Origin: Gammaproteobacteria bacterium
GTDB taxonomy: Bacteria > Pseudomonadota > Gammaproteobacteria > DSM-19610
NCBI GenBank assembly: GCA_026197075.1
Contig: JAPHQV010000044.1
Coordinates: 1-33,756 of the forward strand
Reading direction: 5' to 3'
Length of the DNA: 33,756 nt
The position numbers were made by a program, and so were the translations under genes. Numbering within the stretch: the stretch's first letter is position 1; every line of letters starts with the position of its first letter. Under the pieces are notes generated by a model. It did no database searches. It was not told the DNA's origin and worked only from the letters and a program-made list of their open reading frames with translations. Below, in pieces: positions 1,714-8,239 of the stretch.

Positions 1714-3288
1714 CTACTTGATCTGCGGAGCAGTTTCAAAGCTGTGGTAAGGCGGCGGTGAAGGCAGCGTCCACTCCAGGCCCTTCGCGCCTTCCCACAC
1801 CTGGTCCGTGGCCTTGGCACCGCCGCGGATGGTCTGGAACACGATGTACACGAACAGCAGCTGGGTCAGGCCATAGGCGAAGCCGCCGAGGCTGGAGATC
1901 ATGTTGAACTCCGCGAACTGCACCGAGTAATCCGGGATGCGGCGCGGCATGCCGGCCAGGCCCAGGAAGTGCTGCGGGAAGAACAACACGTTCACGAAGA
2001 GCGTGGACAGCCAGAAATGCCACTTACCCAGGGTTTCGTTGTACATGTGGCCGGTCCACTTGGGCAGCCAGTAGTAGGCTGCGGCCATGATGGCGAAGAT
2101 GGCGCCGGTCACCAGCACGTAGTGGAAATGCGCCACCACGAAGTAGGTGTCATGGTACTGGAAGTCCACCGGGGCGATGGCGAGCATCAGGCCGGAGAAA
2201 CCACCGATGGTGAACATGACCACGAAGCCCAGGGCGAACAGCATGGGGGTTTCAAAGGTCATGGACCCGCGCCACATGGTGGATACCCAGTTGAACACCT
2301 TCACCCCCGTCGGCACCGCGATCAGCATGGTGGCGTACATGAAGAACAGTTCGCCGGTAAGCGGCATGCCCACGGTGAACATGTGGTGCGCCCACACGAT
2401 GAAGGACAGGAAGGCGATAGAGGCCGTGGCATATACCATCGAGCTGTAGCCGAACAGCGGCTTGCGCGCGAAGGTCGGGATGATCTGCGACACGATCCCG
2501 AAGGCCGGAAGGATCAGGATGTACACCTCGGGGTGCCCGAAGAACCAGAAGATGTGCTGGAACATCACCGGGTCACCGCCGCCGGCCGCGTTGAAGAAGG
2601 AGGTATCGAAGAACTTGTCTGTCAGCAGCATGGTGACCGCACCGGCCAGCACCGGCATGACCGCGATCAGCAGGTAGGCGGTGATCAGCCAGGTCCACAC
2701 GAACAGTGGCATCTTCATCAGCGTCATGCCGGGTGCACGCATGTTGACGATGGTCACCACCACGTTGATGGCGCCCATGATGGAGGAGATACCCATCAGG
2801 TGGACGGAGAAGATCAGGAACGGAAAGGCGTCACCGGTCTGCAACACCAGCGGCGGATACATGGTCCAGCCTCCGGCCGGTGCACCGCCCGCCATTAACA
2901 GGGTGGACAGCAGCATGGCGAAGGCGAAGGGCAGGATCCAGAAGGACCAGTTATTCATGCGCGGCAGGGCCATGTCCGGCGCCCCGATCATCATGGGGAT
3001 GAGCCAGTTGGCAAGCCCCACGAAGGCCGGCATGACCGCACCGAAGATCATGATCAGCGCGTGCATGGTGGTCATCTGGTTGAAGAACATCGGGTCGACC
3101 ACCTGCATGCCCGGCTGGAACAGCTCGGCGCGGATGACCATGGCCATGGCGCCGCCGACGAAGAACATCAGCAGGGAGAACAGCAGGTAGAGGGTGCCGA
3201 TGTCCTTGTGGTTGGTGGTGAAGACCCAGCGCAGCAACCCGCTCTGGTGCTCGGCGTGATGCGTGTCGTGTGTAGTTGCAGTGCTCAT
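1714..3288 (-). CDS. ctaD: Cytochrome c oxidase subunit I
   Basis: This catalytic subunit holds heme a and the heme a3-CuB centre where O2 is reduced and protons are pumped. Signatures visible in the 524-residue protein are the CuB/tyrosine-crosslink motif [14 protein letters not shown], the CuB histidine pair WAHHMFTVG, and the heme ligand region [14 protein letters not shown]. The D-channel region [16 protein letters not shown] and the glutamate of HPEVY are kept, so this is an A1-type oxidase. I chose the start [11 protein letters not shown] at 3288: GGAGGAG lies about six bases before it, and an alternative GTG start 15 bases further out would sit inside that ribosome binding site. It follows ctaC by 20 bases and is clearly in the same operon. 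Confidence 0.98.
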
Positions 3289-3308
3289 TCCGTACTCCTC
3301 CACGACCC

Positions 3309-4436
3309 TTAGCGGGCGGCCTTGATATCAGAAGGTTGCAGCAAGTCACCGGTATCGTTGCCCCAGGCGTTGCGCTCATAGGTGATGACCGCGGCCAGGT
3401 CGGCGTCGCTGAGTTGCCCGCCGAAGGCGGCCATAGCGGTACCGGATTTACCGTTCATCACGATATCCACGTGACCGGCAACCGGGCCCTTGATCAGGGG
3501 TGAACCCACCAGTCCCGGGAAGGCGCCCGGCAGACCGGCACCGTTGGCCTGGTGACAGGCGGCGCAGTGGGTGCCATACACCTTTTCACCACGCGTCATC
3601 AGTTCGCCCATGTCCATCTCCCGGTCGTCATCCGCGGCCGCGGCCGCGCTGGCCGCCTGCTGGTCGGCGACCCATTGGCTGTAATCCGCTTCGGACAGGG
3701 CCTCCACCACGATGGGCATGAAGCCGTGATCCCGGCCGCACAGCTCGGCGCACTGGCCGCGATACACGCCGGGTTCCTTGACCTGGATCCACATCTCGTT
3801 GATGAAGCCCGGGATGGCGTCCTTCTTCATGCCCAGCTCCGGCACCCACCAGGCATGGATAACATCACTGGCGGTCAGCAGCAGGCGCACCTTCTTGCCT
3901 ACCGGCACGACCATCTTGTTGTCCACTTCGAGCAGGTAGTGGGGGCCCTTCTCCTCACTACCGTAGATCTGATCGGTCGGAGTGGACAGGTTGCTGAAGA
4001 AACCGATGCCCTCGTCCAGGTACTCGTACTGCCATTTCCACTGGTAGGCAGTGACCTTGATGCTGACATCCGAATCGCTGGTGTCTTCCATGGCGATGAG
4101 GGCCTTGGTGGCCGGAACGGCCATGCTGACCAGTATCAGGAAGGGAATGATGGTCCAGAGGATCTCGACCGTGGTGCTTTCATGGAACTGGGCGGGAACC
4201 GCACCCCTGGATTTGCGGTGACGGAGGATGGAGATGAACATCGCCCCGAACACCACCACACCAATGGCCACACAGATCCACAGGATCAGCATGTGCAGGC
4301 TATAGGCCGTCTGGCTGATCGGGGTTACCCCCACCGGCAGGTTAAGCCCCCAGTCGGCGCGCGCGCCACTTGCCCCCAGCAGAAGGCTCGCTGCCGCTAC
4401 CCCCGACAGACTTCGTTTCATGTTCCTCAACAACAT
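3309..4436 (-). CDS. ctaC: Cytochrome c oxidase subunit II with fused cytochrome c domain
   Basis: Subunit II takes electrons from cytochrome c through the binuclear CuA site. The protein (about 375 residues from [12 protein letters not shown]) has a signal peptide ending near GARA, two membrane helices ([18 protein letters not shown] and [16 protein letters not shown]), a cupredoxin domain with complete CuA ligands (HAWWVPELG and [12 protein letters not shown]), and a C-terminal cytochrome c domain with heme site CAACH and a later methionine-bearing stretch. The fusion marks it as a caa3-like oxidase. Alternative starts are ATG 4421 (MKRSLSG, close AGGA) and a longer frame to 4529. I prefer 4436 or 4421 because both give a clean signal peptide. 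Heme attachment would depend on ResB/CcsA encoded at 20443-23828. Confidence 0.95.
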
Positions 4437-4671
4437 GCCAGCAGTTCTCCTCGTAGTACTCGAACCTTGGTGGTAAGCACCCGGCCAATCCGCCCGCCGG
4501 GTCGTGTGCTGAACGCGTAACGACGCCACAACCTGTCATCTTTCCCGTACTGAAACTGCCTGTGCGTCGAACCACTCCTCCAACAACCGTGCCTGCCAGT
4601 TAGTCACGCCTGAAACGGACGCGCGCGAACCCCCGGCCCATGGCCGGAGGCGGCGCTGCATCCGCGATAAT

Positions 4672-4700: not shown

Positions 4701-4967
4701 AAAACCCCGGCGCGCGCGCGGATCGGCATGGCGGGCTTGTGGCGCCCTGATGCGCTTTTCAGGTACGGCCGCGCATTCTTGTCGATGTGACCTTCCTGCC
4801 TTGCCAGGTCACCCCTGCCTTCCCTCACCACAACCTGCGTCTCCGGGTCTGAATTCTTATTGATGCCGGATGCTACTCCACGCCTGGAGGGAAGACAACA
4901 AAAATCAAAAAATTTTCCGACAAAAAAACCCGTTAAAACAAATAGATATACAGCTTTCCCTTAATTT

Positions 4968-4995
4968 ATAATATTAAGTTTTTCTAACTTGTTAA
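4968..4995 (-). promoter_or_regulatory. Promoter-like site P1 of the oxidase operon
   Basis: On the minus strand TTAACA (4995-4990) and TATTAT (4973-4968) are separated by 16 bases; both hexamers differ from the sigma-70 consensus at one position. It lies in the most AT-rich part of the window, where matches also arise by chance. If used, the ctaC leader would be more than 500 bases long. Confidence 0.4.
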
Positions 4996-5058
4996 TTGGC
5001 AAGCCGGACCGTGAACACAGGCCGGAAAGGATCCGGGAACCGCAAGTCTGACAGACTC

Positions 5059-5940
5059 CTAGCGGCTGACCGCGCTCAACTCGACGCGCCGGTTGCGCAT
5101 CCGGCCCGCCTCGGTGCCGTTGTCGGCGCGGGGCTGCGTCTCCCCCAGGAAGCGCAGTTCGAAGCGATCGCGGGAGATACCCCGCTCCATGAGGAAATTA
5201 CGCACCATAATGGCGCGCTTGCGGGATAGGGCCAGGTTGTACTCCGTGCCACCCTCGCTGCTGGCGTGCCCCTCCACCAGCACCTGGCCGCGTCCCTGGG
5301 TGCGCAGGTGGCGTGCCGTCTGCTCCAGCACCTCGCGTCCCAGGGACGTGATGCGAGCGGAATCGAGGGGGAAATAGACGCGCGTGGCCTCCCCCTCCGC
5401 CATGCCGAAGTGGCTGGGATCACCGACACAGTCCTGGAACTCGCGCTGGGCGGTACGGAAGAAGACGGGCAGGATCCGCACCGTCACCAGATCCTGGCCA
5501 TCGAACCAGTCCCGGTATTGCAGTGTCGGTGCCATACCCTGCTCCAGTTCCGTGAACAGGCGCTGGGCACGTATGCCCTCCACCCGGAAGGACTCGCCTC
5601 CGAGGATGGCGTCCACGGGATCGAGCCCACGCGGCGCGGCCTGGTGCTTCCAGTCCGTCGGGTCCGAGGACAATTGCGCCTCGGTCTGCAACACGGGCGG
5701 CCGCAGGGCATGCACGCTGAACACCAGGTCATGGCGACCCTGACGGCGGAACTCCACCCGACCGTAGCGGGGGATCTCGTGACTGAGGACGCAGACCATG
5801 TCCACCATCCTGGCCTCCCAGGCGGCCTCATGGAGTCGCGCCTGGTGCTGCTGGATGCCCGCCAAGGCCGGTAACGCCAGCATCCCCGGCAGGACCGACA
5901 GCAAAATGCGCAGCAGATTTGCACGAAACCGAGTGGACAT
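5059..5940 (-). CDS. motY: MotY-like stator-associated outer membrane/periplasmic protein
   Basis: MotY forms part of the T-ring that holds stator units at the flagellar motor in Vibrio and Pseudomonas. From the ATG at 5940 the protein has 293 residues: a signal peptide (about 1-28, ending LALPALAG), an N-terminal domain with the MotY-like stretch CVLSHEIPRYGRVEFRR, and a C-terminal OmpA-type peptidoglycan-binding domain (about 185-293, VEGHASSEGG, NLALSRKRA, NGTEAGRMRNRRVEL). Cys50 and Cys171 match the two cysteines that form a disulfide in MotY. A frame running to 6204 is longer but lacks a signal peptide at its start. A sigma-28-like promoter just upstream supports a flagellar role. It is divergent from uvrD. 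Alternative reading: a general OmpA-family protein; the N-terminal motif argues against this. Confidence 0.8.
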   Translation of the reverse strand: MSTRFRANLLRILLSVLPGMLALPALAGIQQHQARLHEAAWEARMVDMVCVLSHEIPRYGRVEFRRQGRHDLVFSVHALRPPVLQTEAQLSSDPTDWKHQAAPRGLDPVDAILGGESFRVEGIRAQRLFTELEQGMAPTLQYRDWFDGQDLVTVRILPVFFRTAQREFQDCVGDPSHFGMAEGEATRVYFPLDSARITSLGREVLEQTARHLRTQGRGQVLVEGHASSEGGTEYNLALSRKRAIMVRNFLMERGISRDRFELRFLGETQPRADNGTEAGRMRNRRVELSAVSR

Positions 5941-5992
5941 GGGAAGGACGCCACAAAACGGGATCCCGGGAACCGGGCTTCCCCCAACCCAG

Positions 5993-6019
5993 CCATCGAC
6001 TCCGAGGACACAAACTTTA
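5993..6019 (-). promoter_or_regulatory. Sigma-28 (FliA)-type promoter of motY
   Basis: On the minus strand TAAAGTTT (6019-6012) is followed after exactly 11 bases by GTCGATGG (6000-5993). The known FliA consensus is TAAAGTTT-N11-GCCGATAA: the -35 box matches at all eight positions and the -10 box at five of eight. It lies about 50 bases from the motY start and faces it. Confidence 0.65.
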
Positions 6020-6076
6020 ACCGTCAGAACGGCTGGCCCCAAAACCAACACCCCCGGGGTTTGGTAGACTGCGCCG

Positions 6077-8239
<2,163 letters not shown>

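Follow-up and report, generated by a model that had tools for sequence, protein, structure and literature searches.

MotY is a periplasmic protein of the stator ring (T-ring). In the closest described systems, the motY gene of Legionella is named among the FliA-regulated genes of class IV (lpp3034 motY being listed with 0.116; PMC5655016), and that of Shewanella oneidensis (SO2754) has a predicted sigma-28 site (PMC3120886). For V. cholerae, two reports list MotY in class III (PMC6504787) and assign motY to the FlrBC regulon (PMC12607845), whereas the Shewanella study describes its own motY finding as consistent with V. cholerae (PMC3120886). An earlier reading of the DNA analysed here (the original prediction) had invoked the late-class position of motY in Vibrio, which, in view of this disagreement, is a weak argument; Legionella and Shewanella are the better precedents. 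FliA control of motY is already known, being reported in the former and predicted in the latter, and the arrangement described below is ordinary in this respect.

Precedents at the level of the site itself come from E. coli (PMC4183435). Its FliA promoters, like the site described here, combine a TAAAGTTT -35 box, an 11-base spacer and a -10 box with a CGAT core. The FliA-bound site of yjdA/yjcZ reads TAAAGTTC-N11-GTCGATGA, and the printed expression of this pair goes from 111/52 to 11/1 in a fliA deletion, without a significance mark. GTCGA sites at holA, evgS, hslU and rluF are bound by FliA, with no clear drop in expression in its absence (PMC4183435).

The site in the window (the whole stretch of 33,756 nucleotides that was analysed) occupies 6019-5993 of the minus strand and consists of the -35 box TAAAGTTT (6019-6012), the spacer GTGTCCTCGGA (6011-6001, 11 bases) and the -10 box GTCGATGG (6000-5993), which confirms the letters, the exact spacing and the placement ahead of motY given in the original prediction. 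Eleven bases between the 8-base boxes is the distance that sigma-28 (FliA) promoters require, and TAAAGTTT is the -35 form by which we recognised this class (a TCAAG variant being also accepted). The agreement with the FliA consensus TAAAGTTT-N11-GCCGATAA is 13/16 letters, and the description of the promoter as near-perfect suits the -35 box (8/8) but not the -10 box (5/8). All three differences from the consensus fall within the latter, which nevertheless retains the CGAT core.

The gene downstream, motY (5059-5940, minus strand), encodes a protein of 293 aa with a signal-peptide-like start, a MotY_N domain (PF18393, 2.3e-29) and then an OmpA-like peptidoglycan-binding domain (PF00691, 1.9e-19). 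Its score against the Vibrio equivalog model NF047620 (108.5) is far under the cut-off of 400, and the protein is therefore a divergent MotY. The ATG at 5940 is the probable start codon; it is the first in-frame start past the promoter, since there is no in-frame ATG, GTG or TTG between the -10 box and this position. The intervening 52 bases (5941-5992, minus strand) contain no clear Shine-Dalgarno sequence discernible by eye. Transcription usually starts about 7 bases past the -10 box, and by this spacing the transcript would start near 5986 and carry a leader of about 46 nt. The divergent neighbour is a helicase gene, uvrD (6077-8239, plus strand), which encodes UvrD domains and, as far as seen, is outside the regulon. 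As uvrD starts at 6077 on the opposite strand, the site lies within a divergent intergenic region of 136 bases. Downstream of motY are genes for cytochrome c oxidase subunits I and II (1714-4529, minus strand), subunit II having a fused cytochrome c domain, with an AT-rich stretch near 4940-5000 between them and motY.

At up to three mismatches the site is the sole match in the whole window, where shuffled sequence gave a mean of 0.01. In the whole genome (2,988,916 bases) the same threshold gives 19 matches compared with 9 for a control pattern read backwards, so that the pattern by itself is about half noise and its precision is poor. The case thus rests on position and conservation rather than on the match score. 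For the approximately 110 start positions of the intergenic strand, the expected number of matches this good is about 1.7e-4 (derived from the 9 control matches in 2 x 2,988,916 positions), which bears out, at about 2 in 10,000 by the reversed-pattern control, the view that a chance match is improbable at this spot.

The original prediction had staked itself on the presence of fliA, and FliA is indeed encoded in this genome (G000:C19:223485-224138), with 275.1 bits against the TIGR02479 cut-off of 189.6. Its expectation that other hits would lie ahead of flagellin, chemotaxis and motor genes fits roughly, for one half of them and not for the other. Of the other 18 matches in the genome, nine were judged to precede motility or signalling genes, namely one for flagellin, one for a chemoreceptor-like protein (4HB/HAMP), four for response regulators, two for GGDEF proteins and one for a HAMP/PAS sensor. 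No obvious motility gene follows the remaining nine, which stand before FtsH, MlaA, FimV, a PilM-like protein (the match being inside its frame), a Lys-rich ORF and, in four cases, unrecognised products in the frames tested. This is a rough test of regulon context, because the downstream frames were chosen by length on the sense strand and tested in part, and the tally covers the matched sites alone. The FliA-like match that comes closest to the consensus in this genome (L009; G000:C57:270-296, minus strand) agrees at 15/16 letters (TAAAGTTT-N11-GCCGTTAA) and precedes a lysine/alanine/valine-rich repeat ORF that ends at the contig edge and weakly resembles the histone H1-like HC2, under the Pfam cut-off.

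Conservation in relatives is best seen in a genome of the same genus, G001, where TAAAGTTT GTGTCTCCGGA GTCGATGG stands 53 bases ahead of the motY ATG. Aligned with the window, both boxes are identical (8/8 each, 16/16 in total), as are 9/11 spacer letters and 41/52 of those between the -10 box and the ATG, compared with 38/57 and a further 17-base gap in the stretch that separates the -35 box from the start codon of uvrD. In another genus, G002 has TAAGGTAT-N11-GTCGAGAA before motY, and in most genomes of genus g3 TCAAG...GTCGA is found directly ahead of the gene. Overall, T(C/A)A(A/G)G...GTCGA was read before motY in 16/18 genomes of the family, the window's own included. The 18 are the 20 family genomes (G000-G019) less G009, which is cut at a contig end, and G005, which has no full MotY match. 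The count takes in weak sites at the right place, such as that of L044 (G007: TCAAGGAG...GTCGACAC, with 6 mismatches). The two genomes outside it are G018, masked by N upstream so that CTCGTCGAAAC alone is visible, and G015, where a GTCGATGA site occurs 200 nt before the start of the match. At -10 position 2, all 16 sites carry T in place of the C of the consensus. The sites of the other family genomes (L030, L031, L032, L033 and others) share the T(A/C)A(A/G)G...GTCGA form with the window and differ from it in having mostly TCAAG and a -10 box that ends 6-8 nt before the ATG, as opposed to TAAAGTTT and 52 nt. On the other hand, several motY loci outside the 16 have GCCGA (L046, L047, L059, L061, L064, L067, L069 and L075), and two of these, L064 (Thiohalomonas) and L075 (Thiohalobacter), could belong to the same family. 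The GTCGA form is therefore not general for motY, and we limit the claim to the family.

Across a broader set of 37 de-duplicated motY loci (13, including the window's own, plus 24 from a second locus set), a FliA-type site occurs within 200 nt of motY in 18 at p<=0.05 and in 9 at p<=0.01, with about 2 and 0.4 expected, respectively, from dinucleotide shuffles. This set leaves out loci whose contigs were judged by length to be duplicates of those in the second set (L031, L032, L033, L034, L035, L036, L037, L038, L041 and L042; the contigs of L037 and L071 differ in length by 100 bases), a locus too close to a contig end for an upstream region (L049) and loci matching the OmpA part alone (L051-L054, L056 and L057). 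Of the 19 non-significant loci, some have the weaker TCAAG/GTCGAAA form and others (e.g. L045, L055 and L076) no convincing site; in L062 the significant match differs from the site adjoining the ATG.

The isolated position of motY beside uvrD, as originally described, is correct for the window, but among relatives it is limited to the same genus: uvrD adjoins motY in 1 of 36 relative loci, that of G001 (the flanks compared reached 1.5 or 2.5 kb at most, and some ended at a contig edge). Elsewhere the neighbour is argininosuccinate synthase (L064 and L068) or an RNase T-like exonuclease (L081); with neighbours changing in this way, the context of motY varies while the FliA site persists in the family. 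Legionella and Shewanella resemble the present case in having motY under FliA, and in Shewanella the gene likewise lies outside the main flagellar region. The likeness concerns regulation; the uvrD neighbour sets the window apart.

Taken together, the layout and conservation of these letters very probably mark a sigma-28 (FliA) promoter for motY. A different regime, in which motY is driven mainly by sigma-70, or by sigma-54 with an activator of the FlrC/FleR type, and the FliA-like site plays a minor part or none, would be in keeping with the class III and FlrBC assignments in the V. cholerae reports cited above. We regard it as improbable, since the form conserved before motY in relatives is the FliA form, and scans of 5941-6076 with simple consensus patterns, which can miss weak promoters, gave neither a sigma-70-type match (the two hits of that scan lie at 4943-4995) nor a sigma-54 pattern (71 matches in total for the latter scan against a chance mean of 68.8). 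Even less probable, to the point of being barely credible, is that the letters between uvrD and motY resemble a FliA site by chance, or are conserved for another reason, e.g. as a site for a uvrD regulator. About half of the matches of this quality in the genome are indeed expected by chance, and the leader of G001 is itself fairly conserved, but the expectation at this particular spot is about 1.7e-4, and the site also stands ahead of motY in genomes that showed no uvrD next to it. The preferred reading, a FliA promoter, also accords with the claim that the site ties motY to the flagellar regulon, for which the FliA gene, the MotY domains, the boxes kept in the same genus and the equivalent site across most of the family all speak.

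Outside the genus of the window the promoter has a distinctive placement. With looser sites counted, the distance from the end of the -10 box to the ATG is 6-8 bases in 14 of these 16 genomes of the family, the two exceptions being those of the window's genus (52-53). A search of the 20 family genomes for TMAAG-N14/15-GYCGAWA-N7/8-ATG returned 26 matches in 14 genomes, compared with 3 for the control. Their ATG opens motY in 12 cases, a 183-aa frame in two, a 147-aa frame in one (L092, with no Pfam match) and frames of <=42 codons in the remaining 11. GTCGAAA is present in all 12 motY matches and GCCGA in all 14 others; the exact form TCAAG-N14/15-GTCGAAA is found 6-7 nt before the motY ATG in 12/20 genomes. 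Short-leader motY loci with GTCGA from other genera of the family include L030, L058, L060, L063, L065, L070 and L074, and a similar distance (7 bases) is seen with GCCGA in L047 and L075. Because the usual spacing of about 7 bases would put the transcript start at or near the ATG, motY messages with no leader, or almost none, are predicted outside the window's genus. The 183-aa frame (L086:1535-2083 and L100:1535-2083) has the same short-leader FliA-type site, and Pfam, applied to L086, shows Sel1 repeats in it. The two frames score far below the cut-off of the MotX model (E 7.3e-7 and 2.3e-7, respectively), and their product is possibly a MotX-like partner.

Flagellin and stator genes of the same family provide a comparison. 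Among 15 flagellin loci (L111-L124 and L082), scanned with C or T accepted at -10 position 2, 13 have a FliA-type site at <=4 mismatches (L118 and L122 have none), and in 11 of these 13 the -10 box is NNCGCTAA, with a TAAAGTTT-like -35 box. This differs from the motY form, so that the -10 letters look gene-specific. At motB, a FliA-type site at <=3 mismatches was found within 1500 nt upstream in 2/29 family loci (L139-L167), and also at L084 of the window's genome, which makes motA/motB a poor positive control. The PF20560 profile gave no match for motA, but the idea of a missing stator was rejected when a motA-like frame beside motB was identified by PF01618. This motA-like gene is preceded by a weaker site, TCAAGATT-N11-GGCGATAC.

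The placement of the -10 box close to the ATG (14/16 family genomes) and T at its second position (16/16) appear mildly novel, and the literature matches listed contain none that pairs motY with a leaderless message, which is not proof of absence. A more specific proposal, to which we give slightly less than an even chance, is that motY of this family retains a FliA promoter sub-form of its own, marked by T at -10 position 2, with a leaderless message outside the window's genus, and that within this genus, beside uvrD, the promoter was kept and the message has about 46 nt of leader.

The conserved FliA start signal before motY probably places its expression at a late stage of flagellar assembly. 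RNA polymerase with FliA would recognise TAAAGTTT and GTCGATGG and begin the motY message about 7 bases downstream, and MotY would be made alongside flagellin and other late products as soon as FliA becomes available, presumably upon its release from an anti-sigma factor. The finding connects a solitary motor gene with the flagellar programme in a bacterial family that has received little study, and for that family it supplies a clear footprint of FliA sites across the phylogeny. The family GTCGA form and the fixed distance of 6-8 nt to the ATG outside the window's genus bear on how FliA promoters differ from gene to gene, and this fixed distance bears also on whether FliA-driven leaderless messages exist. 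If the proposed sub-form is true, a conserved, gene-specific weak promoter together with leaderless translation would tune the dose of the stator-ring protein.
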